In this document: piece after piece, positions 8,309 through 60,951 of the stretch
Position numbering within the stretch: position 1 is the stretch's first letter
Layout of the letters: the number at the start of each line of letters is the position of its first letter
Origin: Cellulomonas sp. NS3
GTDB lineage: Bacteria; Actinomycetota; Actinomycetes; Actinomycetales; Cellulomonadaceae
Assembly: GCF_024757985.1 (NCBI RefSeq)
Contig: NZ_CP103289.1
Location: 2,790,001 to 2,854,000 of the forward strand
Length of the DNA: 64,000 nucleotides
Direction: 5' to 3'
Position numbers and translations under genes: made by a program
Notes under the pieces: model-generated
Databases searched by the model: none
The model's input: the letters and a program-made list of their open reading frames with translations, nothing else
What the model was told of the DNA's origin: nothing

Positions 8309-8504
8309 CTGACCCGACCCAGCGCGAAGATGGTCCCCGATGGAGGCCTCTCCGGCCGCCGCGGTATCGCTCGCTGTACGGCGCGGGTAGTAGCACGTCC
8401 ACGGGTCGTGATCATCGTGATCGGGCGTTGACCCTTCGTCCGCGAAGTGCCGCGAAGTCCTGGCGAGCCGGACCAGTACGAACGTGACGTCGTACGGGCA
8501 ACCG

Positions 8505-8800
8505 CTACAGCGGCGAGACTCCCGACGGCTCCCCCGGTCCGGACACACGCACCGACAGCTCCGCGCGGTCCCGGATGAGGTGCGCCTCGACCGTCGACTC
8601 GCTGACGAACGGCCGCGGGGCGATCTCGCGGTTGCGCAGCCCCCGGTCACGAGCGACCCGATCTCGGTCTCGGTCCAAGTCGGGCCTCCGTCGCTCGCCC
8701 CCGGACGCGGCCGAGCGGCTCGCAGGCGGCGCCGTCCACACTCCTGGAGCGGTATCCCCGGCGACGTCCCAGCGGTCGAGGGTGCGGTGCGGAGTTCCGA
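8505..8800 (-). pseudogene. LuxR-type regulator remnant
   Basis: On the minus strand a frame ending at 8505 contains GLRNREIAPRPFVSESTVEAH, a close match to the helix-turn-helix of LuxR C-terminal domains (usual form NREIAxxLxVSxxTVxxH). The flanks, such as an SAASGGERRRPDLD stretch, resemble the linker just before that domain. The N-terminal ATPase or receiver part is absent and the end of the HTH is scrambled, so this is a decayed fragment. The rest of the 660-base gap (8309-8968) shows no supported gene; its right part must hold the promoter of the chemotaxis gene. Confidence 0.6.
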
Positions 8801-8968
8801 CCCCGACCACCCACCGACTGCAGCCGGATGGCCTCTTTCGTGAGGGACGGTCGCAGCCTCGACGAAGGTCGGTCCCGGCGTTCACCCGGTCGGCCCTCTC
8901 ACCCTGGCGTTGAGGTCGTCGATTCCGCTGGATGGCCTGCGTCTTCAAGTCCGCGTCCCTGGAAATGA

Positions 8969-10594
8969 GTGATCGTGCACTTCTCGCTTCGCCGCGCCTC
9001 CGTAGGTCATCGCCTAGCAGCGTCGTTCGGTGTGGTAACCGTGCTCTTCATTGTGACCGCCGCGACCGGCCTGGGTTTCGGCGAGCTCGAACGTTCCTAC
9101 AGCGACCGGCTGAAGGCGGCGGAGAAGCATCTCGCGATGGCGGAGGCTGTGCGGTTCCAGATCGCCGACGCCACGGGCTGGCAGGCGCTCGTCGTCGCCG
9201 ACGCCATGGTCTACGGCCCCGATGCCGCGCTCGCGCCCGGAGCGGTCAACCGCGACGGGATGCTGGCGACCAAGGCCGCCGTCTACACGTGGCTCGATGA
9301 GCTCGACACAGCGGGGATGGACGCCGATGAGGCCGACGCGCTCGCGCGCCTGCGGGCCGCGTGGGACGACTACTACACCTGGGACGACGCCGTCGTGGAG
9401 TGGATTCGCGACGACACGGCGGCAAGCCACCGTGCGGCTATCGAGTCGATCAACACCGGTGACGCCGGCGCTGCGTACGAGGAGATCCTCGGGGTCGCGG
9501 ACGAGGTCGACGCGTCGGTGCGTGAACGCATCGTCGAGCTGAGTGAGGCGCGTGAGACGACAGGCCAGCGCTCGTCGCTCGCGATCGGGTCGGGCGCCGG
9601 GGCGCTGCTCGTCGCTGTCGTGGCGCTCTCGCTCGTGCTGACGCGCTCGATCGTCCGGCCCGTCCGGGCCGTCGGCTCTGCGCTCGACGCGCTCGCCGTC
9701 GGTGACCTCATGACGACCCCAGACGTGCGCTCGCACGACGAGATCGGCCAGATGGCCGCGGCGCTCGGTCGGGCGCAGACCTCTCTGCGGGCAACGCTCG
9801 TCGCAGTCGCGGACGCTGCGACGACGGTGGACGGTGCCGCAGTCGCGCTGTCGACGTCGGCGAGCGGTGCTGCTGCAGCGTCCCGCGAGGCCTCCGGAGA
9901 AGCGGAGGCTGTCGCTGCTGCCGCCGAGCTGGTGTCGCGCAACGTGCAGGGTGTCGCAGCCGGCGCGGACGAGATGGGCGCCTCGATCCGCGAGATCGCA
10001 CACAACGCGAACAACGCCGCGAAGATCGCGGGCGAGGCCGTCGAGCAGTCGCGCTCGGCCGCCGCCATCGTGACGGAGCTCGGGCGTAGCTCGGCTGAGA
10101 TCGGCCAGGTCGTCAAGCTCATCACGAGCATCGCGGAGCAGACCAACCTGTTGGCGCTCAACGCGACGATCGAGGCCGCGCGCGCCGGCGAGGCCGGCAA
10201 GGGCTTCGCCGTCGTCGCCGGCGAGGTCAAGGAGCTCGCGCGCGAGTCGGCACAGGCCGCCGAGGACATCGGGGCACGCATCGCGGCCAGCCAGCGCCGG
10301 ACGGAGTCTGCCGTCGCCGCGATCACCTCCATCGCGGACGTCATCACCGACATCAACGACTACCAGCTGACCATCGCCTCGGCAGTCGAGGAGCAGACCG
10401 CAACCACCAACGAGATGGCCCGTTCCGTCGTCGATGCGGCGAGCGGATCCGGGGAGATCGCGGCCCGGGTGACGGCACTGGCGCGCGCCTCCGCCGACTC
10501 GTCGGTCGTGCTCGCCGAGATGGGGTCGTCCGTGTCCGAGCTGGCGCGCTTGTCCACGGACCTGCGCAAACGGCTCTCGACGTTCTCCTACTGA
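8969..10594 (+). CDS. Methyl-accepting chemotaxis protein
   Basis: A 541-residue transmembrane chemoreceptor that signals to CheA/CheW. The first membrane helix is at about residues 15-35. A four-helix-bundle type periplasmic sensor (about 36-205) follows, then the second membrane helix (about 207-228, [14 protein letters not shown]), HAMP (about 229-282) and a long coiled-coil signalling domain. The hairpin tip is highly conserved: [20 protein letters not shown] and [15 protein letters not shown]. No C-terminal pentapeptide tether for CheR/CheB is present. The GTG at 8969 follows GGAAATGA; a GTG two codons later is equally possible. No other chemotaxis gene is in the window, so it must work with a remote array. 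Its closeness to three c-di-GMP genes suggests a shared motility or surface-behaviour theme. Confidence 0.92.
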
Positions 10595-10878
10595 CGCCCG
10601 GTCGCCGCGGCGCGATGGTCACCGTCCAGCGCCAGAGACGGGTCGGCGGCGATCTCCCGTGACGGAGCGCTGCGCGCCTGCAGCGCCGTCTGAGAAGCCG
10701 CTCGAAGTTGACTCTCGCCGCGCCTACCTGCGAGTGAGGTCCATACCCGAGGGTTGACGCCCGCCACGAGCGGGATGCGGGCCGGTTCCCGCTTCCTGAC
10801 GAAAGCCGCTGCGGACATGTCGACTATCGACCACGGCAGCCCAAGCCGGCCGCGCTTCCGAGCGCGGCCAATCGTCCG

Positions 10879-11090
10879 GCGACCTACAGCCCTGAGGAGG
10901 TCGCAACCATGCTCGGCACGTCAGCCTGGTGGGTCCGCGAGCAGGCCCGCCGCGAGCGCGTCGCCCACCTGCGACTCGGCAAGGGCCGCATCCGCTTCTC
11001 CCCAGCCCAGGTCGCGGCACTCATCACCAGCGCTACCGTCGAGGTTGTCGAGGATCAGCCGCGGCCGGGACGCAACGTAGCCCGTGAGGA
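10879..11090 (+). pseudogene. Excisionase/MerR-like helix-turn-helix fragment
   Basis: The frame reads ATYSPEEVATMLGTSAWWV, then REQARRERVAHLRLGKGRIRF: the winged-helix pattern (YxxxEVAxxLGxS...VR...lG..IRF) of Xis-type proteins (helix-turn-helix domain 17). An ATG at 10909 lies inside the domain, so translation from there would lose its first helix. Upstream codons are open, but no good start with a ribosome site was found. After about residue 60 the frame continues as unrelated low-quality sequence into the tRNA-like fragment. I treat it as a remnant of an integrative element, although a small active protein with an unseen start is possible. Confidence 0.5.
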
Positions 11091-12722: not shown

Positions 12723-14327
12723 ATGACCGAGGTCCACCGTGAGATCGAGGCGACGCTCGTCGCCGACGACGCGTTCGACGTGCCGAGCCTGCTGGAGCTG
12801 GTGCGGTCCTCCGACGCCGCCACCCCGTGGGTCGAAGGCGAGCCCGCGACCCAGGTGCTGCGCGCGACGTACTACGACACCGACGACCTCGCGCTCGCGC
12901 GCCACGGCCTCACGCTGCGCCGGCGCGCCGGGGGCAGCGACTCGGGCTGGCACCTCAAGGTCCCCGACGCGGGTGCGGCGCGGTCCGAGGTCCGTCTGCC
13001 TCCCGGTCGCGCCGGCTCCGCGCTGCCGGAGCCGTTGCGCCGCATGGTCCGGGCCCAGACGCTGGACCGGCCCCTCGTGCCCGTCGCGAAGGTCACGACG
13101 CGGCGGACGGTGCGCCGGCTGTTCGACGCGACTGACCGCCCGGTGCTCGAGCTGGCCGACGACCGCGTCAGCGCCCGGCGCGTGCTCCCGCTGGGCGGCA
13201 CGGGCGCCGCCACGGGTCCGGAGATCACGTGGCGCGAGCTCGAGGTCGAGGCCCTGGACGACGGGACCGCGCTGGTGGACGTCGCCGCGGCGGAGCTGGT
13301 CTCCCGCGGGCTCCGCCCGGCCCCGCACACGTCCAAGGTGGCGCACGTGCTCGGGCTCGACCCGGGCAGCCAGGCCGGTGACGACGGCGGGCGCTCCCGC
13401 CGGCCCGCGAAGCCCGCGAGGTCGGCGAAGGCGGCGCGGGCCGCGACGAGCCAGGTGCCGCTCGCGTACGTGCGCGACCAGGTCGAGCAGCTCCGCACCC
13501 AGGACCTGCTGGTCCGGCTCGACGCACCGGGCAGCGTGCACAAGATGCGCGTCGCGACCCGCCGCCTGCGCAGCGCCCTGGTCACCTACCGCAAGGCGTT
13601 CGACCGGGACGCCTTGCGGCCGCTCCTCCCGGAGCTGAAGTGGTTCGCGGGGGTGCTCGGAGCGGTGCGCGACGCCGAGGTGATGCGCGAGCGCGTCGTG
13701 GACTCCCTGCAGGGGCCGTCCGAGCACCTGCAGGGAGCCGACGCCGGCCCGGACCGCGACCCCGACCTGCGCCCGTGGGACGACGCTCACGCGGCGGCAC
13801 GCGCGGCCCTGCTGGTCGAGCTCGACGGCGAGCGGTACGGCCGCCTGCTGCACTCGCTCGAGCGCCTCGTGACGGACCCTGCCGTGCCGGAGCGCGGGCG
13901 TCGGCCCGCCCGGAAGGTCCTGCGGCGCGGGGTCGCACGGGAGTACGCCGACGTGCGCCGCCTCGTGCGGCGGGCGACCACCGTGAGCGACGAGGCCGAG
14001 CGTGAGGACGCCCTGCACGACGCCCGGAAGGCCGCCAAGCGCGCCCGCTACGCGGCGGAGCTCGCCACCGCCGTGTTCGGGGACGAGGCGCGCGCGTTCG
14101 CCGCGGCCATGGAGAGCACGCAGGAGGTGCTCGGCCGGCACCAGGACTCGGTCGTGCTCCGGGAGCGCCTGCGCGACCTCGCCGCGAGCGCGACGGACCC
14201 GATGACGGCCTTCGACTACGGGCGGCTGCACGCGCTCGAGCAGGTCCGCGCACGCGAGGCGGAGGACCGGCTGCCGTCGGTCTGGCGCAAGGCGAGCCGC
14301 AAGCGCCTGCGCCGCTGGCTGCGGTGA
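12723..14327 (+). CDS. CYTH and CHAD domain protein
   Basis: A 534-residue cytosolic protein. The CYTH domain (about 1-205) belongs to the triphosphate-tunnel fold. It starts HREIEATL, so the usual ExExK signature ends in Thr, which may weaken metal or triphosphate chemistry. An Ala/Lys/Arg linker leads to a helical CHAD domain (about 250-525) with VHKMRVATRRLRSAL and a second HDARKAAKRARYAAE motif, the conserved His/basic pattern thought to bind polyphosphate. CYTH-CHAD proteins are linked to inorganic polyphosphate, so a polyphosphate-granule or triphosphatase role is likely. The frame is open 24 codons further upstream, but the ATG at 12723 starts the CYTH fold directly. Confidence 0.85.
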   Translation: MTEVHREIEATLVADDAFDVPSLLELVRSSDAATPWVEGEPATQVLRATYYDTDDLALARHGLTLRRRAGGSDSGWHLKVPDAGAARSEVRLPPGRAGSALPEPLRRMVRAQTLDRPLVPVAKVTTRRTVRRLFDATDRPVLELADDRVSARRVLPLGGTGAATGPEITWRELEVEALDDGTALVDVAAAELVSRGLRPAPHTSKVAHVLGLDPGSQAGDDGGRSRRPAKPARSAKAARAATSQVPLAYVRDQVEQLRTQDLLVRLDAPGSVHKMRVATRRLRSALVTYRKAFDRDALRPLLPELKWFAGVLGAVRDAEVMRERVVDSLQGPSEHLQGADAGPDRDPDLRPWDDAHAAARAALLVELDGERYGRLLHSLERLVTDPAVPERGRRPARKVLRRGVAREYADVRRLVRRATTVSDEAEREDALHDARKAAKRARYAAELATAVFGDEARAFAAAMESTQEVLGRHQDSVVLRERLRDLAASATDPMTAFDYGRLHALEQVRAREAEDRLPSVWRKASRKRLRRWLR

Positions 14328-14345
14328 CGCCGGCCGCGCCGCTGT

Positions 14346-14423
14346 GACGTCGACGTTGCGGTGACGCCGGCGTTGCGGTGACGCCGGCGTTGCGGTGACG
14401 TCGCCGTTGCGGTGACGCCGGCG
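14346..14423 (+). repeat. 17-bp tandem repeat, four copies plus a partial
   Basis: The unit GACGCCGGCGTTGCGGT occurs at 14346, 14363, 14380 and 14397 with a few changes, followed by a partial copy. It lies between the CHAD stop and the convergent SDR stop. It may help transcript termination, but no stem with a T-run is formed. Confidence 0.85.
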
Positions 14424-46898: not shown

Positions 46899-49800
46899 AT
46901 GACGCGTTCATCCGCGCGTTGGACAGCACGAGGGGCAGCCCTGCTGGCCGTGGTCATGGCAGCGGCCGTGGCCCCGGGCGCAGCAGCCGTCCCGACCACC
47001 ACCGACCTCGCCGCGGCCGCCGAGCCCGTCGTCGTCCTCGGCACCGACTTCGAGGACGGCTCCTGGGCGCCGTGGACGCAGAGCGGCGCGGCGCCGCTCT
47101 CGGTCGTCGACGTCGACGGCGGCAAGGCGCTCCTCGTGAGCGGCCGCGCGGCCGACTACGAGGGCATCCAGTCCCCCACCGGGCTGCTCGAGCCCGGCAC
47201 CTCCTACACGTTCTCGATGCGGGCCCGGCTCGCCGAGGGCACCGCGGGCTCCGCGGGCGTGCGGTTCGTCGTCAAGCCCGACTACACCTGGGTCGGGAAC
47301 ACGTCGATGACCGCCGACGCGTGGACGACCGTGACCGGCTCGTTCACCGCACCCGCCGCGGCCGACCCGGCGGCGCTGCAGGTCTACCTCGGCACCGGCG
47401 ACCTCGCTGCGCCGTACGACTACCTCGTCGACGACATCGTGCTCACCGCGACCGGCGGCAGCATCGAGCCGCACCCGGACGTGGTCCCCGGCGGCGCGGT
47501 CGACCCCGTCCCCACGCCCGTGACCACCGCACGCAGCACCGGGAACGTCGCCGCGCTGACGTTCGACGACGGCCCGAACCCCGGCGAGACCGACGACCTC
47601 CTCGACTTCCTCGCCGAGAACGACCTGACCGCGACGTTCTGCGTCATCGGCCAGAACGTCCAGGTCGAGGGCGGTGCCGCGCTGCTGCGCCGGATCGTCG
47701 ACGAGGGCCACACGGTCTGCAACCACACGACCACGTACGCCGACATGGGGAGCTGGACGCCCGAGCAGATCCGTGCGGACCTCGTCGAGAACCTCGCGAT
47801 CATCCGCGAGGCCGCCGGCGACCCCGAGCTCGAGGTCCCGTACTTCCGTGCCCCGAACGGCAGCTGGGGCGCGACCCCGGCCGTCGCGGTCGAGCTCGGC
47901 ATGCAGCCGCTCGGCCTGGGCAACGTCATCTCCGACTGGGACGGCAACGACCTGTCCGAGGAGACGTTGACCGCCAACCTGCGCGCGGCCGTCACGCCCG
48001 GCGCGATCGTGCTGGTGCACGACGGCGGCGGCGACCGTGCGAACGGCATCGCGGCCGTCCGCACGGTGATCGGCGAGCGCCTCGCCGAGGGCTGGACGTT
48101 CACGCTGCCGTCGGGCGGCGCAGCCCCCACCGTCACCTCGCTCAGCACCGACTTCGAGGACGGCCTCGACGGCTGGGTCCCGCGCGGCGACGCCGACGGC
48201 GACCCCACCGTGGAGCTCACGACCACGCAGGCGCACGGCGGCGCGCAGGCCGCGCTCGTGAGCGGGCGCTCGTCGCAGGGCGACGGCATCGGCCGCGACG
48301 TCACCGGGCTGCTGACCGCGGGCACGACGTACGACATCAGCGCGTGGGTCCGGTTCGGTGAGGGCGCTGCGACGGACGACGTCTGGCTGAGCGTGCAGCG
48401 CACCGCCGAGGGCGCGACGACGTACGACACCGTCGCCCAGCTCACGGGTGTGACGTCCGGTGCGTGGCACGAGATCCGGGCGACCTACCAGATGCCCGCG
48501 GCCGAGTCCGCGTTCCTGTACCTCGAGACCTCCTACCCCGACGGCTCGACGGCCGACCTCCTGGTCGACGACGTCGTCATCTCCGCGAAGCAGCCCAGCG
48601 AGGTCCAGGACCTCACGCCGCTGCAGGACACCGTCGACTTCCCCGTCGGCGTCGCGATCGACAGCCGCGAGACCACCGGCCCCGCGGCCGAGCTGCTCCT
48701 GCGACACTTCGACCAGATCACGGGCGAGAACCACATGAAGCCCGAGGCCTGGTACACCGACGCGCGCGAGTTCCGCACGCACCCCGAGGCCACCGCGCTC
48801 ATGGAGTTCGCGCAGGAGAGCGACGTGCGCGTCTACGGGCACACGCTCGTGTGGCACAGCCAGACCCCGGCGTGGTTCTTCACGCACGAGGACGGCACGC
48901 CCCTCACCGCGAGCGAGGCCGACAAGCAGGAGCTGCGGATGCGCATGCGGACGCACATCTTCGACGTCGCCGAGGCGCTCAGCACCGGCGGCGGCTACGG
49001 CCTCTTCGGCAGCGAGACCAACCCGGTCGTCGCGTTCGACGTCGTCAACGAGGTCGTCTCCGACGGTCGCAGCGAGGAGGACGGGCTGCGCCGCAGCGAG
49101 TGGTACCGGGTGCTCGGCGAGGAGTTCATCGACCTCGCGTTCCGGTACGCCGACGAGGCCTTCAACGGCGAGTTCGCGGTCGAGGGCGAGCGTCCCGTGA
49201 CGCTCACGATCAACGACTACAACACCGAGCAGGCCGGCAAGCAGCAGCGCCTGCACGCGCTCGTCGAGCGGCTGCTCGCGCGCGACGTCCCGGTCGACGC
49301 GGTCGGCCACCAGTTCCACGTGAGCCTGGCCATGCCGGTCCAGGCGCTCGAGGACGCGATCGTCGCGTTCGACGACCTGGGCCTGACGCAGGTCGTCTCG
49401 GAGCTCGACGTCACGACGGGCACGCCCGTCACGCAGGCGAGCCTCATCGAGCAGGGCTACTACTACCGCGACGCGTTCCGGATCTTCCGCGAGCACGCCG
49501 AGGACCTGTTCTCCGTGACGGTGTGGGGTCTGACCGACGGCCGCAGCTGGCGCGTCGACTCGGGTGCCCCGCTCCTCTTCGACGACGCGCTGCAGGCCAA
49601 GCCGGCGTACCACGGCGCGGTCGACGGCGAGCTCCCGGCCCGCCAGCGTGCGGCGAACGCGTTCCGTGGGGACGTCCCCGTCGCCGCGGGTGCCACGGGG
49701 GCGGTCGAGTGGCGGCAGCTGCCGCTCCAGACGGTCGAGGACGTCGCGGGCTTCTCGGTGCGCTGGGAGGCCGACCACCTGTCGGTCTACGCCCGGGTCA

Positions 49801-50966
49801 CCGACGCCACGGTCGACGCGTCCGACGCGGTCACGTTCGTCGTGGGCGAGGAGTCGTCCACGGTCGGGCGCGACGGCGAGTCCGACGTCGAGGCCGTCGT
49901 CGAGGCGGTCGACGGCGGGTACGCGGTCGTCGCGCACCTGCCGCGCACGTCGGCCGAGGGCGACCAGGTGAGCTTCGACGTCCAGGTCACGGACGGCGAG
50001 AGCACCGCGGCGTGGAACCAGCCGGGCGTGCTCGGGACGCTCACGCTCGTCGAGGCCCTGTCCACCACCCAGGTGGTCGAGGCCGCGGCGGCGCCCGTGA
50101 TCGACGGCCAGGTCGACGCCGCGTGGGCGTCGGCGAACGCCGTCACGACCGACAAGCAGATCGAGGGCCAGGGTGGGGCGACCGCGGACGTGCGGACGCT
50201 GTGGCGCGAGAACACCCTCTACGTGCTGGCCGAGGTCGCGGACCCGACGCTCGACGCCACGGGCTCCGACCCGTGGGTCCAGGACTCGCTCGAGATCTTC
50301 CTCGACGCGGGCAACGTCAAGAACGGTCCCTACCGCTACGACGACACGCAGATCCGGATCAGCTACCTGGGCGAGACGTCGTTCGGCACGGGTGACGAGG
50401 CGTTCCAGCAGAACCGTCTCGTCAGCCGGACCAGCACCGTCGAGGGCGGCTACGTCGTCGAGGCGTCGATCAGCCTGCTCGAGGCCGGCGGCGTGGGGAC
50501 GTTCCACGGCCTGGACTTCCAGGTCAACGACGCGACGGCCGGCGCGCGCACCGCGGTGCGGGCGTGGGCGGACCCGACGGGTCGCGGCTACCAGAGCACG
50601 GCCCGCTGGGGCGTCGCCGAGCTCGTCCCCGCGGTCGTCGTCCCCGAGCCCGACCCGAGCGTCTCGGCCGACCGGAAGGTCCGCGCCGGCGCGCAGCTCG
50701 AGGTCACGCTCGAGGGCTACCTCCCCAGCAGCACGGTCGAGCTCGTGCTCGAGCGGCGCATCGGGCGCTGGGTCGTGGCCCGCGTCGACCTCGGCGACGT
50801 CACGGTCGGCGCGGACGGCTCCGCGACGACCGAGGTCCGGGTCCCGCGCGGGGTCCTGCCGGGGAAGTACACGCTGCGCGGCACCTCGGGCGAGGTCACG
50901 GCCGACACCACGGTGACCGTGCAGCTCGCCAAGCCGTCGTGGTGGTGGGGATGGTGGCCGTTCTGA
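46899..50966 (+). CDS. Secreted multidomain CE4 deacetylase-GH10 xylanase
   Basis: A 1355-residue exported enzyme. The signal peptide (about 1-32) ends near APGAAA. A CBM4/9/22-type module (45-190) is followed by a NodB-like CE4 deacetylase (215-405; TFDDGPN with Asp223/Asp224, FRAPNGSWG, LVHDGG). A second CBM22-like module spans 415-565 and GH10 spans 568-915 (acid/base Glu718 in DVVNEVV, nucleophile Glu835 in VVSELDV). Two CBM9-like modules (915-1065 and 1066-1245) and an Ig-like domain ending in a Trp-rich tail (WWWGWWPF) complete it. It should deacetylate and cleave xylan outside the cell. Upstream is AAAGGGGCG. The next gene overlaps its stop by one base. Confidence 0.93.
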   Translation: MTRSSARWTARGAALLAVVMAAAVAPGAAAVPTTTDLAAAAEPVVVLGTDFEDGSWAPWTQSGAAPLSVVDVDGGKALLVSGRAADYEGIQSPTGLLEPGTSYTFSMRARLAEGTAGSAGVRFVVKPDYTWVGNTSMTADAWTTVTGSFTAPAAADPAALQVYLGTGDLAAPYDYLVDDIVLTATGGSIEPHPDVVPGGAVDPVPTPVTTARSTGNVAALTFDDGPNPGETDDLLDFLAENDLTATFCVIGQNVQVEGGAALLRRIVDEGHTVCNHTTTYADMGSWTPEQIRADLVENLAIIREAAGDPELEVPYFRAPNGSWGATPAVAVELGMQPLGLGNVISDWDGNDLSEETLTANLRAAVTPGAIVLVHDGGGDRANGIAAVRTVIGERLAEGWTFTLPSGGAAPTVTSLSTDFEDGLDGWVPRGDADGDPTVELTTTQAHGGAQAALVSGRSSQGDGIGRDVTGLLTAGTTYDISAWVRFGEGAATDDVWLSVQRTAEGATTYDTVAQLTGVTSGAWHEIRATYQMPAAESAFLYLETSYPDGSTADLLVDDVVISAKQPSEVQDLTPLQDTVDFPVGVAIDSRETTGPAAELLLRHFDQITGENHMKPEAWYTDAREFRTHPEATALMEFAQESDVRVYGHTLVWHSQTPAWFFTHEDGTPLTASEADKQELRMRMRTHIFDVAEALSTGGGYGLFGSETNPVVAFDVVNEVVSDGRSEEDGLRRSEWYRVLGEEFIDLAFRYADEAFNGEFAVEGERPVTLTINDYNTEQAGKQQRLHALVERLLARDVPVDAVGHQFHVSLAMPVQALEDAIVAFDDLGLTQVVSELDVTTGTPVTQASLIEQGYYYRDAFRIFREHAEDLFSVTVWGLTDGRSWRVDSGAPLLFDDALQAKPAYHGAVDGELPARQRAANAFRGDVPVAAGATGAVEWRQLPLQTVEDVAGFSVRWEADHLSVYARVTDATVDASDAVTFVVGEESSTVGRDGESDVEAVVEAVDGGYAVVAHLPRTSAEGDQVSFDVQVTDGESTAAWNQPGVLGTLTLVEALSTTQVVEAAAAPVIDGQVDAAWASANAVTTDKQIEGQGGATADVRTLWRENTLYVLAEVADPTLDATGSDPWVQDSLEIFLDAGNVKNGPYRYDDTQIRISYLGETSFGTGDEAFQQNRLVSRTSTVEGGYVVEASISLLEAGGVGTFHGLDFQVNDATAGARTAVRAWADPTGRGYQSTARWGVAELVPAVVVPEPDPSVSADRKVRAGAQLEVTLEGYLPSSTVELVLERRIGRWVVARVDLGDVTVGADGSATTEVRVPRGVLPGKYTLRGTSGEVTADTTVTVQLAKPSWWWGWWPF

Positions 50967-52234
50967 TGGCTGTCGATCTCCGGCACCGCACCGCCGACGC
51001 CACGCTGACCGTGCGTGGCGCCGGCGGGCGGCCCCTGGCCGACACCGAGGTCGTCGTCGAGCAGACGCGTCACGCGTTCGCGTTCGGCAACATCGGCTTC
51101 GACTTCATCGGGCTCGCGAACGACGAGACGGAGGCGCTCCCGGACAGCCCGTTCGGGGGCGCCCCGCCCGCGAGCGCCGCACGGCTCGCGGACCTGTTCC
51201 TCGACGTGTTCAACACGGTGACGCTGCCGTTCTACTGGGGCGGCTTCGAGCCCCGCCGCGGCGAGCCGGACACGGCGCGGCTGCTGCGCACCGCGCAGTG
51301 GTTCGCCGAGCGCGGGGTCACGGTCAAGGGCCACCCGCTGGTCTGGCACACGGTCACCGCCGACTGGCTGCGCGAGCTCTCGACCGACGAGGTCGAGGCC
51401 GCGCAGCGGGCCCGGATCCGGCGCGAGGTCACCGACTTCGCCGGGGTCGTGGACGTGTGGGACGCGATCAACGAGGTCGTGATCATGCCGGTGTTCGACA
51501 ACGAGGAGCACCGCAACGGCATCACGCGACTCTGCTACGAGCGGGGCCGCATGGCGACGATCCGGATGGCGTTCGAGGAGGCGCGCGCGGCCAACCCCCG
51601 CGCGACGCTCCTGCTCAACGACTTCGACCTGTCGACCGCGTACGAGTGCCTCATCGAGGGCGTGCTCGAGGCGGGCATCCGGATCGACGCCATCGGGCTG
51701 CAGAGCCACATGCACCAGGGCTACTGGGGCGAGGAGAAGACGCTGCGGATCCTCGACCGCTTCGCCCGGTACGGGCTGCCGCTGCACCTGACCGAGAGCA
51801 CGCTACTCTCGGGCGACCTCATGCCGCCGCACATCAAGGACCTGAACGACTACCAGGTCCCGTCGTGGCCCTCGACCCCGGAGGGCGAGGAGCGGCAGGC
51901 CGAGGAGATGGTGCGGCACTACCGCACGCTCGTGGCGCACCCCGCGGTGCAGGCCGTGAACTACTGGGGGATCTCCGACGAGGGCGCGTGGCTCGGCGCA
52001 CCCGTCGGGCTCGTGCGCGCGGACGGCACCCCCAAGCCGTCGTACGACGCGCTGCACGGGCTGGTCAGGGACGAGTGGTGGCACGGGCCGACGACGCTGC
52101 GCTCCGACGCGTCGGGACGGGTCGCCGTCCGCGGGTTCCTCGGCGACTACCGGGTCACCGCCGGCGACGCGTCGGCGTCGTTCGCGCTGACCTTGCCCGG
52201 CGCCGTCGAGGCGGAGGTGTCCCTCCCCCGCTGA
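50966..52234 (+). CDS. Intracellular GH10 endo-xylanase
   Basis: A 422-residue GH10 enzyme with no signal peptide. A small N-terminal beta-domain (ATLTVRGAGGRPLADTEVVV) precedes the barrel. The acid/base Glu170 is in WDAINEVV; the nucleophile Glu277 is in HLTESTL, where most family members have TELD. HPLVWHT and NYWGISDEGAW are also family motifs. It probably trims xylo-oligosaccharides after uptake. The ATG overlaps the upstream stop (TGATG), so the two xylanases are translationally coupled; an in-frame ATG five codons earlier is also possible. Confidence 0.9.
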   Translation: MAVDLRHRTADATLTVRGAGGRPLADTEVVVEQTRHAFAFGNIGFDFIGLANDETEALPDSPFGGAPPASAARLADLFLDVFNTVTLPFYWGGFEPRRGEPDTARLLRTAQWFAERGVTVKGHPLVWHTVTADWLRELSTDEVEAAQRARIRREVTDFAGVVDVWDAINEVVIMPVFDNEEHRNGITRLCYERGRMATIRMAFEEARAANPRATLLLNDFDLSTAYECLIEGVLEAGIRIDAIGLQSHMHQGYWGEEKTLRILDRFARYGLPLHLTESTLLSGDLMPPHIKDLNDYQVPSWPSTPEGEERQAEEMVRHYRTLVAHPAVQAVNYWGISDEGAWLGAPVGLVRADGTPKPSYDALHGLVRDEWWHGPTTLRSDASGRVAVRGFLGDYRVTAGDASASFALTLPGAVEAEVSLPR

Positions 52235-52318: not shown

Positions 52319-53677
52319 TCAGAGCGGGACGTCGACGAACGGCGGCACGTACCCGTCGCCGTCGGCCGCCGCAGCACCGGCCACGAGCGACGACCACGCC
52401 TCCCGTACCGGGACGCCCTGCTTCGCGGCGCGGCGGGCGACCTGACCGGTGAGCAGCGCGGCCGAGAACGACGTCCCGCCCCAGCGGCCCTGGCCGGAGA
52501 ACTCCTGCACCGTGCCGTCGTCGAGCTCGACCGGGCCGGTCAGGTAGGTGCTCAGCAGCCCCTCACCGGGAACCACGACGTCGATCCACGGTGAGTCCGG
52601 CGGCGTGAACGCCGTGAGCGTCGCCGAGCGGGTCTTCTTCTTCTTCGACTCGCGAGCCCGGGCCGAGCCGACCGCGACCACGTCGTCGAGCGCCGCCGGC
52701 CACGCGGGCTCGCGGGCGTCGACCCGCAGCGCGCCGTCCGGCCCGGTCCCCCCGACCTGCTGGGCGACGACGGGGTCCGCGTGGTTGCCGGCACACGCCA
52801 CGACGAGGACCTCGGGCGGGAGCCGGTCGACCGCCGTCGCGAGCGCGAGCGGCGGACGCGAGTCCGACGTGTAGCACACGAGCGAGAGGTTGAGGACGTC
52901 GATCCCGCTGCGCCCGAGCGCGACGATGCCGCGCGCCACGTCCCACGACGACGCCGCACCCCGGTCGTCGAGCACGCGCCGCACCCGGACCGTCGCGCCG
53001 GGCGCACGGTGCAGCACGAGCCCGGTCACGAACGTGGCGTGCCCAGCAGCCACGGGGAACGGCCCGTCGCCGGCCACCAGGTCGTCCGGCGGGTCCGCGA
53101 GGAAGCGACCCGCGAGCGCCGGGTGGGGGGACACCGCGGTGTCGAGCACGCCGACCCTGATCCCCGCGCCCCCGCGGCCCCCGAAGCGCACGGGCTGGTC
53201 GGTGCGCTCCGGTGGCGGGCCGCCGCCGTGCGAGACGGTCCCGCCGCCGTTCGTGACGAGCCCGACGAACCGGTTCTTGCCCATCGTCGGGAACCAGCCC
53301 GAGTACCGGTCGCGGAACGACGCCCGCAGCAGGGTCAGGAGCTCGTCGGCGTGGTCGGGCTCGAGCCCGCCGTCGACGGCCCGGCGCAGCGGCCTCGCGT
53401 ACCCCGGGTCGAGCCGCGGGACCGTGGCGTCGTCCTGCACGTCGTCGGGCCCGGAGTCCTGCGGCCGCTCGCGCCACCCGTCCAGCAGCCCCTCGAGGTG
53501 CTCGCGCGGGAACGCGAGGCGGCTCAGGCCCAGTGCCTCGTCGCTCTCGTACGCGTAGCCGGTCGCCCCCCAGCGGTCGAGCGTCGTGCGCACGAGCCCG
53601 TCGTGCTCGGCCGCGACGAGGAGGTCCGCGGTCGCGGACGGCGTCGCGGTGGCGCGCCTCGGGGTCTGCTCGGACAT
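52319..53677 (-). CDS. S8-family subtilisin-like protease, no signal peptide
   Basis: A 452-residue serine protease. The triad is visible: Asp in VGVLDTAVSPH, His in AAGHATFVTGLV and Ser in GGTSFSAALLTG, with the oxyanion Asn in VACAGNHADP. The N-terminal 165 residues are not the usual I9 propeptide. They end in a GWFPTMGKNRFVGLV segment and may be a regulatory or recognition domain. Without a signal peptide it should act in the cytosol. A KKKK insertion lies between the oxyanion and Ser motifs. It is divergent from the TPR-CHAT gene, with 146 bases between them, suggesting that the two proteases form one system. Confidence 0.9.
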   Translation of the reverse strand: MSEQTPRRATATPSATADLLVAAEHDGLVRTTLDRWGATGYAYESDEALGLSRLAFPREHLEGLLDGWRERPQDSGPDDVQDDATVPRLDPGYARPLRRAVDGGLEPDHADELLTLLRASFRDRYSGWFPTMGKNRFVGLVTNGGGTVSHGGGPPPERTDQPVRFGGRGGAGIRVGVLDTAVSPHPALAGRFLADPPDDLVAGDGPFPVAAGHATFVTGLVLHRAPGATVRVRRVLDDRGAASSWDVARGIVALGRSGIDVLNLSLVCYTSDSRPPLALATAVDRLPPEVLVVACAGNHADPVVAQQVGGTGPDGALRVDAREPAWPAALDDVVAVGSARARESKKKKTRSATLTAFTPPDSPWIDVVVPGEGLLSTYLTGPVELDDGTVQEFSGQGRWGGTSFSAALLTGQVARRAAKQGVPVREAWSSLVAGAAAADGDGYVPPFVDVPL

Positions 53678-53823
53678 GTGCGCCTCCGTGGCCGGCGGGA
53701 TCCTCCGTCAGTCTCCCAGCGGCACCCTCGCCCCGAAAGGCTCGCGGACTGCCCGTTGACGAAGCGCCCCGCACGCGCGACCGTCGGAGCAGGACGCGTG
53801 CGCAGCCAGGACGAGGCGGGGAC

Positions 53824-56559
53824 GTGACGGAGCTCAGGGTCGACGCCGACGAGGCGCTACGGCTCGCGGGGGTCGACCCCGCCGCCGCGGTCCTGCTCGC
53901 GGGCGACGTCGTCCCAGCGTCCCGGGCGGCGCGCGACTGGGCCGCGGCGTGCGTCGCGGAGCGGGCCCTGGGCGTCGCGGCGATGCAGCAGTCCCGGCTC
54001 GACGACGCGCTCGTCCACCTGCGCGCCGCGGTCCGGGCCGGGCACCGCGCCGCCGAGGCCGGGCTGACCGGTGAGGCCCGGATGAGCCTCGCGTCCGCGC
54101 TCATGCTCCGGGGCCAGCCCCGGCAGTCGGCGCAGGAGATCGGCCGCGCGCTCGCCGAGCTCGACGGCGTCGCGGCGGCCCGGGCGCTGACGCAGCGCGC
54201 CGCGATCTCGCAGGAGCTCGGCCGCCTCGACGACGCGTTGGACGACCTGCGGCGCGCCCTGCCGGTGCTGCGCCGGGCGGGGGACGTGCAGTGGGCGACG
54301 CGCGCGCTCTCGAACCGCGGGCTGCTGCACACCGCGCGGCGCGAGTTCGCCGCCGCGGAGTCCGACCTCGTCGCCGCGAGGCGCCTCTGCACGGAGCACG
54401 GCCTGCGGCTGCCCGGTGCGATCGTCGCGCACAACCTCGCGTGGGTGCACGCGCAGCGCGGCGACGTCCCGGCCGCGCTGCGGCACCTCGCCTCCGCCGA
54501 GACCGCCTTCACGGGGCTCGGGCTGGCGCCGGGGTCGATCCTCACGGACCGCGCCGAGCTGCTGCTCTCGGTGCGTCTCGTCGACGAGGCACGGGCGACC
54601 GCGGAGGCAGCGGTCGCCGCCGACGAGCGGGACGGGCGGCGCAACCACCTGCCGGAGGCCCGGCTGCTGCTCTCGACGATCGCGCTCGTCCAGGGCGACG
54701 CCGAGCGGGCCCGGGCGGCGGCCGAGACGGCGATGCACGACTTCGGCCGGATGGGCCGCACCGAGTGGACGACGCTCGCCCGGTACGCGCGCGTCCAGGC
54801 CCTCGTCGAGGCGGACCGCGCCGTGACGCCGGCGCAGGTGCGCCGGGTCGCGGAGGCGCTCGCGCAGTCGGGGTGGGCGGTCCCCGCGCTCGAGGCGCGC
54901 ATCCTCGCGGCCCGGCTCGCCCTGCGCCGCGGCGACGCCGCCGGTGCACGCCGCGACCTCGCCGAGGCCGGCCGGGCGCGCCGGGCGGGACCGGCGGACG
55001 CGCGCGCCCGGGCGTGGCTCGCCGAGGCGATGCTCCGCGAGCAGACGGGCAGCCGCCACGGTGCCGTCGCCGCGCTGCGCGCCGGCCTGCGGGTCGTCGA
55101 GGACCACCGTGCGACGCTCGGGGCGACCGAGCTGCGCGCGCACGTCACCGTCCACCGGGGCGCGATCGCCCGGATGGGCCTGCGCCTCGCGCTCGAGGAC
55201 CGCGACGCCCGGCACGTCCTGTGGTGGGCGGAGTGCAACCGTGCCACGGCGACCCTGCTGCGTCGCGTGCACCCGCCCGAGGACGCGGTGCTCGCCGACC
55301 TGCTCGCACAGCTGCGCGCGACCATGACCGCGATCGAGGAGCGGCGGACCGCCGGGGCCCCGACGTCGTCCACGGTGCAGCAGCAGGTCGTGCTCGAGCG
55401 CACGATCCGCGACCACTGCCGCGAGCTGCCCGGGCAGGGCGGCGACGCACCCGTGCGCCCGCGGCCGGTCGCCGAGCTGCAGCAGGCGCTGGGCGGTGCG
55501 GCGCTCGTCGAGTACGTCGAGCACGAGGGCCGGCTGCTCGCGGTCACGGTGAGCGCGGGCCACGTCCGGCTGCACGCGCTCGGGTCCGTCGAGGACGTCC
55601 GCGCGCAGGTCGAGCTCGTCGGCTTCGCGCTGCGGCGCCTCGCGGCGGGGACCGGGCGCCCGGCGAGCCTCGCGGCCGCCGAGACGGTGCTCGAGCGCGC
55701 CGGTGCGCGGCTCGACGCGCTCCTCGTGCTCCCGTTGCGGGGCACGGTCGGCGACCGTCCGCTCGTCGTCGTCCCGGTCGGCGTCCTGCAGCAGGTGCCC
55801 TGGTCGGTCCTCCCGTCGTGCCGGGGCCGTGCGGTGAGCGTGAGCCCGTCGGCGACGCTGTGGCACGCCGCAGCCGGGCGCGAGGCCCCTGCCGACGGCC
55901 GGGTGGTCGTCGTCGCCGGCCCGGGGCTGCCCGGTGCACGCGCCGAGGCGGACGCGGTCGCGGCCGGGTACCCGGGCGCGCGTCTGCTCGTCGGCCCGGA
56001 CGCCGCCGCCGCCCCCGTCGGGGAGGCCCTCGACGGAGCAGCACTCGTGCACCTCGCCGCGCACGGGCGGCTGCGCTCCGACAACCCGATGTTCTCCGCG
56101 CTCACGCTCGCCGACGGACCGTTCACGGTGCACGACCTCGAGCGCGTCCCGCGCGCGCCGCACCACGTCGTGCTCGCCGCGTGCGACACGGCCCGCTCCG
56201 AGGTCGTAGGGGGCGGGGAGATCCTCGGGTTCACCGCGGCGCTGCTCGCCGGGGGGACGGCGACGCTCGTCGCCCCGGTGGTCCCCGTCGCCGATGCCCA
56301 GACCGTCGCGCTCGTCGTCGCCTACCACCGCGAGCTCGGCCGGGGCCGGACCCCCGCCGACGCGCTCGCGCACGCCCAGCTCGCGCTCGCCGGTGCGGAC
56401 CCGCAGTCCCGGGCGGCGGCCGCCGGCTTCGTCGTGCTCGGCCACGGCGACCGCCCGGCGTCGGCGTCACCCGGACCGACGCCCGCCCGGGCCCCGGCGC
56501 TGGAGCCGGCCGACGCGGTGCCGGGGCGCACGCCCGTCGCCGCGGCCTTGCCCGCATGA
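53824..56559 (+). CDS. TPR-CHAT caspase-like protease
   Basis: A 911-residue cytosolic protein. The first 560 residues are alpha-helical TPR-like repeats (for example AEAGLTGEARMSLASALMLR and GDVPAALRHLASAETAF). The last 300 form a CHAT domain of the caspase/separase clan. The catalytic dyad is His747 in VHLAAHGRLRSDNPMFSAL and Cys787 in VVLAACDTARSE, followed by GEILGFTAALLAGG, all typical of active CHAT. The C-terminal 40 residues are Pro/Ala-rich. The start is GTG 53824 after GAGGCGGGG. It is flanked by a divergent subtilase and, downstream, by an unknown 156-residue gene and an ECF sigma gene. TPR-CHAT proteins elsewhere cleave partner proteins when a sensor is triggered. Confidence 0.92.
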   Translation: MTELRVDADEALRLAGVDPAAAVLLAGDVVPASRAARDWAAACVAERALGVAAMQQSRLDDALVHLRAAVRAGHRAAEAGLTGEARMSLASALMLRGQPRQSAQEIGRALAELDGVAAARALTQRAAISQELGRLDDALDDLRRALPVLRRAGDVQWATRALSNRGLLHTARREFAAAESDLVAARRLCTEHGLRLPGAIVAHNLAWVHAQRGDVPAALRHLASAETAFTGLGLAPGSILTDRAELLLSVRLVDEARATAEAAVAADERDGRRNHLPEARLLLSTIALVQGDAERARAAAETAMHDFGRMGRTEWTTLARYARVQALVEADRAVTPAQVRRVAEALAQSGWAVPALEARILAARLALRRGDAAGARRDLAEAGRARRAGPADARARAWLAEAMLREQTGSRHGAVAALRAGLRVVEDHRATLGATELRAHVTVHRGAIARMGLRLALEDRDARHVLWWAECNRATATLLRRVHPPEDAVLADLLAQLRATMTAIEERRTAGAPTSSTVQQQVVLERTIRDHCRELPGQGGDAPVRPRPVAELQQALGGAALVEYVEHEGRLLAVTVSAGHVRLHALGSVEDVRAQVELVGFALRRLAAGTGRPASLAAAETVLERAGARLDALLVLPLRGTVGDRPLVVVPVGVLQQVPWSVLPSCRGRAVSVSPSATLWHAAAGREAPADGRVVVVAGPGLPGARAEADAVAAGYPGARLLVGPDAAAAPVGEALDGAALVHLAAHGRLRSDNPMFSALTLADGPFTVHDLERVPRAPHHVVLAACDTARSEVVGGGEILGFTAALLAGGTATLVAPVVPVADAQTVALVVAYHRELGRGRTPADALAHAQLALAGADPQSRAAAAGFVVLGHGDRPASASPGPTPARAPALEPADAVPGRTPVAAALPA

Positions 56560-56746
56560 GCACCCCGCGCCGCCCCGACGGGCACGGCCGTCGACCCGGT
56601 GTATCAGGGCGCCGGGTCGCGGCTCCCCCGGGTGGTGCACCTGCACCCGGGGACGCGCAGAGCGCACCGCGGTGGGACGCTGGGACCGGGGCTCCGGCAC
56701 CGGCGGCGCACCGCCGGCCCCCGCGGACGAGTGGACGGTGACGGTC

Positions 56747-57217
56747 ATGACGCAGCCACGATGGACCGACGACGACGAGCTCCTCGCGGACCTGCGCAGC
56801 GCCCTGGGCGGGGGCGCACCGGTGGGCGAGGGCGCACCGGTGAGCGCGCGCGAGCTCGAGGCCGCCCGGGCCGCGTACACCTGGCGGACCGTGGACGCCG
56901 AGCTCGCGACCCTGAGCTACGACTCGCTGCTCGACGACCGCGTCCTGGTGCGCGGGGCGGCGGCCGCGCCGCGCAGCCTCGTGTTCGACGCCGCGGACCT
57001 CACCGTCGAGCTCGAGGTCACCGCGGGCCGGCTCGTGGGCCAGCTCGTGCCGCCCGGCCCCGGCGAGGTGGTGCTCGACACGCAGTCGGCGCAGGAGGGA
57101 CCCGTCGCCACGGACGACGCCGGCTGCTTCACGCTCTCCGCGCCCCCCGGCGCGCGCGTCCGGCTGCGCTGCACGACCCCGTCGGGAACCGTCGTGACCG
57201 ACTGGGTGCGTACCTAG
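56747..57217 (+). CDS. Unknown protein of the CHAT-sigma locus
   Basis: A 156-residue protein. The N-terminal third is acidic and helical (WTDDDELLADLRSALGG; ELEAARAAYTWRTVDAELA). A flexible Gly/Ala/Pro stretch splits it, and the C-terminal half is beta-rich (LTVELEVTAGRLVGQLVPPG...), like small transthyretin-type or carboxypeptidase-regulatory domains. No family can be named. It starts 187 bases after the CHAT gene, and its stop shares CTAG with the convergent sigma-factor stop. By position it could be an anti-sigma-like partner or a CHAT substrate; that is inference only. Confidence 0.75.
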   Translation: MTQPRWTDDDELLADLRSALGGGAPVGEGAPVSARELEAARAAYTWRTVDAELATLSYDSLLDDRVLVRGAAAAPRSLVFDAADLTVELEVTAGRLVGQLVPPGPGEVVLDTQSAQEGPVATDDAGCFTLSAPPGARVRLRCTTPSGTVVTDWVRT

Positions 57218-57807
57218 CCCTCGGGGGACGCCGCGATCCACGCGGCCACGGCCGGGTGCTCCCGGATGCGCTGCAGCGCACGCGCACGGGTCGGCCCGAT
57301 GCTGCCGACGGGGATGCCGAGCCGGGCGCTGATCTCCGCGTAGCTCGGCGGCGGGTCCTCCACCAGGACCAGGAGCAGCTCCCGGTGCTGCGCGGACAGC
57401 TCGGCGAACGCCCGCAGCAGGAGCTCGTGGCGACCGGCGTGGTCGAGGTCCTCGACGACCTCCTCGTCGAGGCGCGCGGTCGCCGGTGGCTCGTGGTCGA
57501 TCCCGGGCCCGAGCGGGTCGACCGGCTGGGTGCGCCGGCGGGCGCGCAGGAGCCGCAGGCACTCGTTGCGGGCCGTCGCGACGATCCAGCCCGGCAGCGC
57601 GGCCGGTTCACGCAGGTCGTCGAGGTGCTCGACGAGGCGCAGCCAGAGCGTCTGCACGACGTCCTCGACGTCCGAGCCCTGCAGGCGGTAGCGGCGCACG
57701 ATGCCGTGCACGAGCGGCGTGAACCGCACGACGAGGTCGTCCCACGCCGCCTGCTGCCCCCCGCGCGCCGCGAGGACGAGCTCCGCGACGGAGACGTCGT
57801 CCGCCAT
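57214..57807 (-). CDS. ECF-type RNA polymerase sigma factor
   Basis: A 197-residue sigma-70 family protein with only regions 2 and 4. Region 2 reads FTPLVHGIVRRYRLQGSDVE followed by DVVQTLWLRL, with GWIVATARNECLRLLRARRR at the end. Region 4 has PPSYAEISARLGIPVGSIG then PTRARALQRIR as the DNA-reading helix-turn-helix. The ATG at 57807 follows GGGAGG. No classical transmembrane anti-sigma gene is adjacent; instead it is convergent with the unknown gene of the CHAT locus. It may direct transcription of the protease genes. Confidence 0.92.
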   Translation of the reverse strand: MADDVSVAELVLAARGGQQAAWDDLVVRFTPLVHGIVRRYRLQGSDVEDVVQTLWLRLVEHLDDLREPAALPGWIVATARNECLRLLRARRRTQPVDPLGPGIDHEPPATARLDEEVVEDLDHAGRHELLLRAFAELSAQHRELLLVLVEDPPPSYAEISARLGIPVGSIGPTRARALQRIREHPAVAAWIAASPEG

Positions 57808-60279: not shown

Positions 60280-60951
60280 TCAGGCGTGGGCGGCCGGGGC
60301 ATCGTCGGCCAGCACCCCGAGCGTCTGCGGCGACGGGGACGCCGCGCGCGCGGACACCGCCGTGAGCCGGTGGCGGTGGTGGCGCCGGCACAGCACCTCG
60401 TAGCCGACCGTGTCGGCGTCCGCCTCGACGTCCCCGACGACGACCTGCTCGCCCTCGACGACCATGACGCCGCCGACGGTCCGGGCGTTGTGGGTCGCGC
60501 GCTCCCCGCACCAGCACAGCGCGCGCACCTGCAGCACCTCGACGCGGTCCGCGAGCTCGACGAGCCGCGCGGAGCCGGGGAACAGGCGGGTCCGGAAGTC
60601 GGTCGTGATGCCGAACGCGAAGACGTCGACGCCGAGCTCGTCGACGACCGCCGCGAGCTGGTCGACCTGCTCGGCCGTGTAGAACTGGGCCTCGTCGCAG
60701 ATCAGGTAGTCGACGGCCCGGCCCCGCGTGCGCCGCGCGACGACCTCGGCCCAGAAGTCGGTGGTGTCCGCGACCTCGTGCGCGTCGACGCTGAGCCCGA
60801 GGCGCGACGACAGCCGCGCGGCGCCGGCCCGGTCGTTCCGGGTGAACAGGACCCCGTCGCGCCCGCGGGCCTCGTGGTTGTGGTGCATCTGCAGCGCGAG
60901 CGTCGACTTGCCGCAGTCCATCGTGCCGGAGAAGAACGCGAGCTCAGCCAC
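60280..60951 (-). CDS. tdk: Thymidine kinase
   Basis: A 223-residue type II thymidine kinase of the salvage pathway (thymidine to dTMP). The P-loop is GTMDCGKST (residues 9-17), Walker B-like YLICDEAQFY, and the lasso/zinc region has CWCGERATHNAR and LCRRHHRHRL, keeping the four zinc ligands. GYEVLCRR supports full length; the last 25 residues are an Ala/Pro tail. It is 28 bases after the phosphodiesterase gene on the same strand. Confidence 0.94.
   Translation of the reverse strand: MAELAFFSGTMDCGKSTLALQMHHNHEARGRDGVLFTRNDRAGAARLSSRLGLSVDAHEVADTTDFWAEVVARRTRGRAVDYLICDEAQFYTAEQVDQLAAVVDELGVDVFAFGITTDFRTRLFPGSARLVELADRVEVLQVRALCWCGERATHNARTVGGVMVVEGEQVVVGDVEADADTVGYEVLCRRHHRHRLTAVSARAASPSPQTLGVLADDAPAAHA

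Follow-up and report, generated by a model that had tools for sequence, protein, structure and literature searches.

Can two proteases, a sigma factor and a small protein without family assignment, encoded side by side in the chromosome of a soil actinobacterium, form a switch in which proteolysis controls transcription without any part of a CRISPR system? The question arises from the window (that is, the whole 64-kb stretch of DNA analysed here, positions 2790001–2854000 of the complete 4.78-Mb genome of Cellulomonas sp. NS3), in which an initial annotation had described a TPR-CHAT protease, a subtilase (S8), a 156-residue protein (here p156) and an ECF sigma factor. All four genes are present as described, with intact open frames and the expected Pfam assignments (Table 1), and the convergent ECF and p156 genes share 4 nt where their stop codons meet. 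Judged from sequence, this conserved four-gene set has the look of a complete gene switch under protease control.

Table 1. Features of the module, in positions of the window
Feature	Position	Strand	Details
S8 subtilisin-like serine protease	52319–53677	−	452 aa, PF00082
TPR-CHAT cysteine protease	53824–56559	+	911 aa from GTG at 53824, PF12770
Promoter-like element TGTATCA-N16-CTC	56600–56625	+	Predicted −35/−10, upstream of p156
p156	56747–57217	+	156 aa, without family match
ECF sigma factor	57214–57807	−	197 aa, sigma-70 region 2

The four proteins and their predicted parts

The S8 protein (PF00082, E 7e-16) carries its own N-terminal region of ~165 aa and retains all of its catalytic residues (Asp179, His213, Asn298 and Ser403); in agreement with its earlier description as signal-less, no signal peptide was seen and no hydrophobic stretch rises above the usual limit. 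The CHAT domain spans residues 625–860 (PF12770, E 1.3e-34) of its protein. Of the claim that an intact His/Cys CHAT domain follows TPR repeats, the catalytic part stands, given that His747 and Cys787 (the latter already named as the catalytic cysteine) are both in place; the Pfam TPR models cover only residues 119–223, and the remainder of the ~600-residue front part is presumably TPR-like. Among aligned relatives (the reference and some duplicate loci being counted as rows), the CHAT His and Cys are kept in 86/86 covered rows, and the S8 residues likewise (Asp in 86/86, His in 87/87, Asn and Ser in 89/89). A membrane segment is predicted above threshold in 26 of 91 CHAT rows, where in the window protein it corresponds to a part of the CHAT domain that looks buried, and in none of the S8 or ECF relatives; both proteases appear to be cytosolic.

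The sigma factor is recognized by sigma-70 region 2 (PF04542, E 1.6e-15) and by TIGR02937 (E 4.5e-21), with region 4 (PF04545) falling below cut-off (20 of 24.1 bits), and we count it as an ECF sigma factor with regions 2 and 4, as expected of group ECF54.

p156 was rightly said to belong to no known family: no Pfam, NCBIfam or PADLOC family scores above threshold, and the Pfam search revealed no recognized anti-sigma domain. Across 91 relatives, two parts of it are constant, namely an N-terminal stretch in which two helices are predicted and a domain at the C-terminus, and the AlphaFold2 model (mean pLDDT 85.0, pTM 0.67) accordingly has two parts (that is, helices at residues 9–20 and 34–48, and a C-terminal beta-sandwich at about 76–156, with a block pLDDT of 94–98 from residue 81 on). 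No membrane segment is predicted in 95 relatives. Foldseek returned no match reaching E 0.001, the best, non-significant ones being Ig/FN3-like sandwiches; the p156 profile reaches a beta-domain of known structure from a biofilm-associated surface protein (E 4.3e-6). PF13620 (CarboxypepD_reg), which we take to be a non-enzymatic, regulatory-like domain, matches 17 of 62 p156 relatives (best 8.4e-7), the window protein not being one of them. We regard p156 as the best candidate in the module for an anti-sigma factor or a protease substrate. Arg69 had been considered as a near-invariant cleavage site and was dropped, as Arg occupies this position in 64 of 88 sequences only. At two Geodermatophilus loci, two p156 genes lie near one module (10602–11063 and 13806–14273 at locus L045; 10602–11063 and 11175–11654 at locus L048).

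Conservation and co-occurrence of the module

Genome contigs were searched with the ECF alignment, which found at least 568 stretches encoding a relative; the best 80 were kept (that is, the closest ECF relatives and hence a favourable sample), and their neighbours were called with profiles of the module proteins. Among these best 80 of at least 568, all from named genomes, p156 lies nearby in 76 and all four genes in 71, the rest consisting of p156 with CHAT (3), p156 alone (2) and none of them (4), with several incomplete loci stopping at a contig end. The genes occur in about eight orders, since two (L093 and L115) of the ten order strings seem to arise only from ranking genes by the midpoints of their open frames; on the tree (56 rows, near-copies left out), this amounts to 9 changes of order with L115 taken as an order of its own, or a minimum of 7 with eight orders. 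The closest relative of the window locus among the named loci is that of Cellulomonas cellasea. Sigma and p156 share a strand in 74 of the 76 loci, usually with sigma first and the ends nearly touching, an arrangement often found in sigma/anti-sigma pairs; the 2 exceptions are Cellulomonas relatives with the convergent order of the window. In a coevolution analysis of 218 sigma–p156 pairs, the top scores exceeded those of full permutations and of coarse permutations inside clusters, though not those of a finer within-cluster scheme, and a model of a read-through fusion of the Actinoplanes sigma–p156 pair, obtained without an inter-domain error table, reached a pLDDT of 85.8 and a pTM of only 0.58.

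Taking p156 rather than the sigma factor as the starting point, a profile of 62 rows was run against 394 genomes sampled across the class and matched in 121 of them. We examined 138 p156 places (that is, the listed places of the class draw with 8 kb on either side, two places in the window genome and two others), of which 134 have an ECF gene within 1.5 kb; within 7 kb, CHAT is found at 108 and S8 at 90, so that p156 tracks ECF more closely than it tracks either protease. By combination, 86 places have ECF, CHAT and S8, 21 have ECF and CHAT without S8, 26 have ECF only (9 of them near a contig end) and 4 are without ECF. For 18 of the 26 ECF-only places, the genome was searched further, and in 17 of these 18 the CHAT profile matched elsewhere (16 matches nearly full length and 1 split over two contigs), and S8 adjoins CHAT in 16 of the 17 separate CHAT loci fetched, the 17th being a 5.4-kb contig. 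The system thus consists of two halves, sigma–p156 and CHAT–S8, which are separable and yet co-occur. Across the 394 genomes, with CHAT presence set at E 1e-60 or better, 110 have both p156 and CHAT, 11 p156 alone, 7 CHAT alone and 266 neither (Fisher p 5e-75, uncorrected for relatedness). Given that 21 places combine ECF and CHAT without S8, and that only 2 of 20 genomes having sigma, p156 and CHAT without a nearby S8 encode a module-grade S8 elsewhere, S8 is a common yet dispensable fourth part, and the initial idea of two proteases acting in sequence found no support. The expectation that the four genes stay together across actinobacteria is thus borne out, and what was found is a conserved neighbourhood, with co-occurrence even where the set is split, in place of the missing neighbourhood that the initial annotation had named as grounds for giving up the idea.

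The window genome itself holds two Pfam CHAT matches, each of which adjoins an ECF and a p156 relative, a grouping beyond chance. The second is a divergent ECF–p156–CHAT row (genome 1090000–1109000, at about 6713–10506 of this piece), which sits on a very long branch (best identity 31%) and has no S8 within the 19 kb fetched. It adjoins genes that by eye resemble those for ribosomal protein L7/L12 (rplL) and rpoB, a setting common to 12 loci, mostly of Cellulomonas (names likewise by eye), and a thymidine-kinase-like neighbour of the window module (60280–60951) clusters with genes from 13 further loci. These shared settings point to long vertical residence rather than to a mobile defence island. 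The window neighbours are, by eye, household genes (xylanases, OsmC, a transporter and others): two large glycoside-hydrolase-like, probably xylanase-like, genes (46899–52234) come just before S8, and an OsmC-like peroxidase gene (PF02566, 57966–58436) adjoins the sigma gene on the same strand. The suggested defence role consequently found no backing, as PADLOC, run with the four module proteins only, gave weak or generic matches (S8 to a generic subtilase model at 1.3e-10, CHAT to BovA at 0.014) and none for p156 or ECF, and as a single-sequence query found no p156 relative on viral contigs; the defence-island reading was therefore set aside.

A promoter-like element upstream of module genes

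The word TGTATCA emerged from a k-mer scan and is thus a post hoc choice, its position and spacing having been tested afterwards; an earlier two-box scan (5-mer plus 4-mer) had found nothing above shuffles. TGTATCA lies upstream of 19 of 198 ECF genes (0.4 expected) and 7 of 46 S8 genes, and its reverse complement upstream of 25 of 120 divergent CHAT genes (0.3 expected). Altogether, 63 of its 136 occurrences in 3.57 Mb fall inside 116 kb of upstream windows, against 2.4 expected. A second box, CTC, follows at offset 16 in 38 and at offset 17 in 19 of 64 sites; as CTC also stands at 16 in 41 of 69 occurrences outside the upstream windows, many of these are probably real sites as well. The combined pattern, TGTATCA-N16/17-CTC, has 58 sites upstream of module genes where 1.8 are expected, an enrichment of about 30-fold in which related genomes are treated separately and events are not independent, and it marks 57 of 215 loci, a minority. 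Behind the 104 two-box sites, the nearest gene in the same direction is S8 at 40, ECF at 21, p156 at 6, CHAT at 0 and another gene at 22, with none found at 15.

The element ahead of p156 (Table 1) is conserved in C. cellasea and is the sole exact match in the window genome, in which the reversed control pattern also has 1 match; an exact copy is missing from the other module of that genome. Across 20 genomes, partly picked because their module had the site, 42 matches compare with 46 for the reversed control (that is, no genome-wide excess); judged by position, the module has a match in 12 of the 13 genomes of this set that carry p156. TGTATCA-N16/17-CTC is a predicted promoter that the ECF sigma factor of the module would read.

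Large AAA-LuxR regulators are encoded directly behind the element at three loci (L215, 8499–11177; L206, 13161–15839; L195, 1042–2817), and such genes may be a further target of the sigma factor. In Nocardioides (L152, 9225–9602; L150, L090 and others), a small protein without Pfam match, beginning MTW, is encoded behind the element and divergently from sigma. Among the other enriched words, TCTATACTC precedes 10–13 ECFs, CTACCAT precedes 13 CHATs and TTGACG, perhaps a housekeeping promoter, precedes 16 of 120 CHAT genes, usually at a distance of ~50 nt; words enriched upstream of p156 were taken as the end of the sigma gene.

A proposed circuit and its relation to known systems

Beside the observed gene association and co-occurrence, intact active sites, predicted two-part fold and enriched element, we set out tentatively, at a little short of an even chance, a cytosolic, CRISPR-free switch in which p156 is inhibitor and substrate, CHAT the sensor and sigma its own transcriber, and in which the signal, all binding and cleavage, and the reading of the element by sigma are inferred. 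At rest, the ECF sigma factor would be bound and held inactive by p156, probably through the helical arm. The TPR part would sense a signal and so activate the CHAT protease, which would cut p156 directly, or through S8 where this is present, and thereby free sigma. The freed sigma factor would then transcribe its own module from TGTATCA-N16/17-CTC (usually S8, sigma and p156; here p156), and the p156 newly made from the element would reset the switch. Given that CHAT is never found behind the promoter-like element, it may be the standing sensor, with S8 as an induced second protease. Against the circuit weigh the failure to recognize an anti-sigma domain in p156, coevolution scores that stay below the stricter permutations, the low pTM of the fusion model, the convergent and hence non-operonic sigma and p156 genes of the window and two relatives, the modules without S8, the genomes with only one of p156 and CHAT, and, for the element, its small share of loci, its missing genome-wide excess and the empty first scan.

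The same association data are fitted equally well by the account already in print. For ECF54, a 2022 review (PMC8999054, citing Casas-Pastor 2021 and Huang 2015) describes a context of subtilase, CHAT and 'carboxypeptidase', names a member from Geodermatophilus and proposes proteolytic control without an anti-sigma factor. The sigma factor of the window matches ECF54 by this published gene context, as distinct from the group's own HMM or clade test. Transferred to the module, the proteases would degrade sigma itself, and p156, which does lack a known anti-sigma domain, would be an adaptor, scaffold or co-activator that delivers or shields it. However, the 'carboxypeptidase' is probably the p156 domain and not an enzyme; if so, the premise of a sigma factor without partner falls, since p156 is its most constant neighbour and PF13620 is a regulatory-like domain without enzymatic function. 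We therefore consider degradation of sigma rather unlikely, although to be taken seriously. It is quite improbable, in our estimate, that the proteases are instead the output, with a p156-held sigma factor inducing S8 (and the S8–CHAT pair) in a self-destructive or housekeeping response whose signal enters at p156: S8 is indeed the commonest first gene behind the element, yet CHAT, the more constant protease, never takes this place, and many modules are without S8.

A separate doubt concerns the element, which may be bound by a different regulator, such as one of the large AAA-LuxR proteins, rather than being the promoter of the module's sigma factor. All three downstream proteins tested match AAA_16 and GerE, and many modules lack an exact copy; on the other hand, two boxes at fixed spacing have the geometry of a promoter, and the window has the element with no AAA-LuxR regulator noticed by eye beside the module, and we judge a foreign site to be unlikely. 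That the genes are merely inherited together as a neighbourhood without function would agree with a within-genus conservation that is largely vertical, but is scarcely credible in view of the many gene orders, the co-occurrence of unlinked halves and the old second copy. Our preferred reading thus remains the p156-inhibited, CHAT-triggered switch. Its context and proteolytic control were in print before; what is added here is the identification of the 'carboxypeptidase' as p156 and the predicted promoter, and a literature search, beyond whose reach lay two ECF classification papers, found no publication in which a p156-like protein is discussed as an anti-sigma factor.

In type III-E CRISPR, according to PMC10028731, the TPR-CHAT protease Csx29 cuts Csx30, the inhibitor of an ECF-type sigma factor, and the analogy drawn with this system (Craspase) is apt in logic: both sets combine a TPR-CHAT protease with a His/Cys dyad, an ECF-type sigma factor and a third protein alongside, and the profile of the window CHAT protein reaches the Craspase TPR-CHAT chains in the catalytic part (E about 5e-4). 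The module differs from Craspase (that is, Cas7-11, Csx29, Csx30 and CASP-sigma) in its added S8 protease. Its description as having no CRISPR part agrees with what was seen: no Cas7-11 or other cas gene was recognized by eye among the listed window ORFs, and a repeat scan of the 64-kb window, which returned six close direct-repeat families, contained no CRISPR-like array. Only one of these families exceeds two copies, a tandem with a 17-nt period in four overlapping copies (14331–14423). Csx30 is absent from the PDB sequence matches of the p156 profile up to E 10 and from the best 50 of 1127 Foldseek matches of p156.

It is conceivable, although we would call it doubtful, that the module is a stand-alone, widespread and cytosolic counterpart of the Craspase output arm, in which TPR-CHAT cuts a new soluble anti-sigma factor, p156, and sigma has a dedicated promoter found, in this genome, only at the module. 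If so, the CRISPR version would be one variant of an older and more general protease–sigma circuit, and caspase-like control of transcription would be common in actinobacteria, given the frequency of p156 in genomes of the class, rather than peculiar to type III-E CRISPR. ECF54, in print without an anti-sigma factor, would gain a concrete partner, substrate and promoter, and a natural CRISPR-free protease–sigma module would be at hand.

With ECF54 as published, the module shares an actinobacterial ECF sigma factor with a conserved subtilase and CHAT nearby, and Geodermatophilus loci are among the ECF relatives found here (L045 with the full module); it departs from the published group, for which the review gives no anti-sigma factor, in its constant partner p156. 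With the regulated proteolysis of RseA and RsiW (PMC10028731), the proposed circuit shares the principle that a protease relieves the inhibition of an ECF sigma factor. Unlike these membrane anti-sigma factors, p156 and its relatives have no predicted membrane segment, and the proteases of the module belong to other families and are apparently cytosolic.
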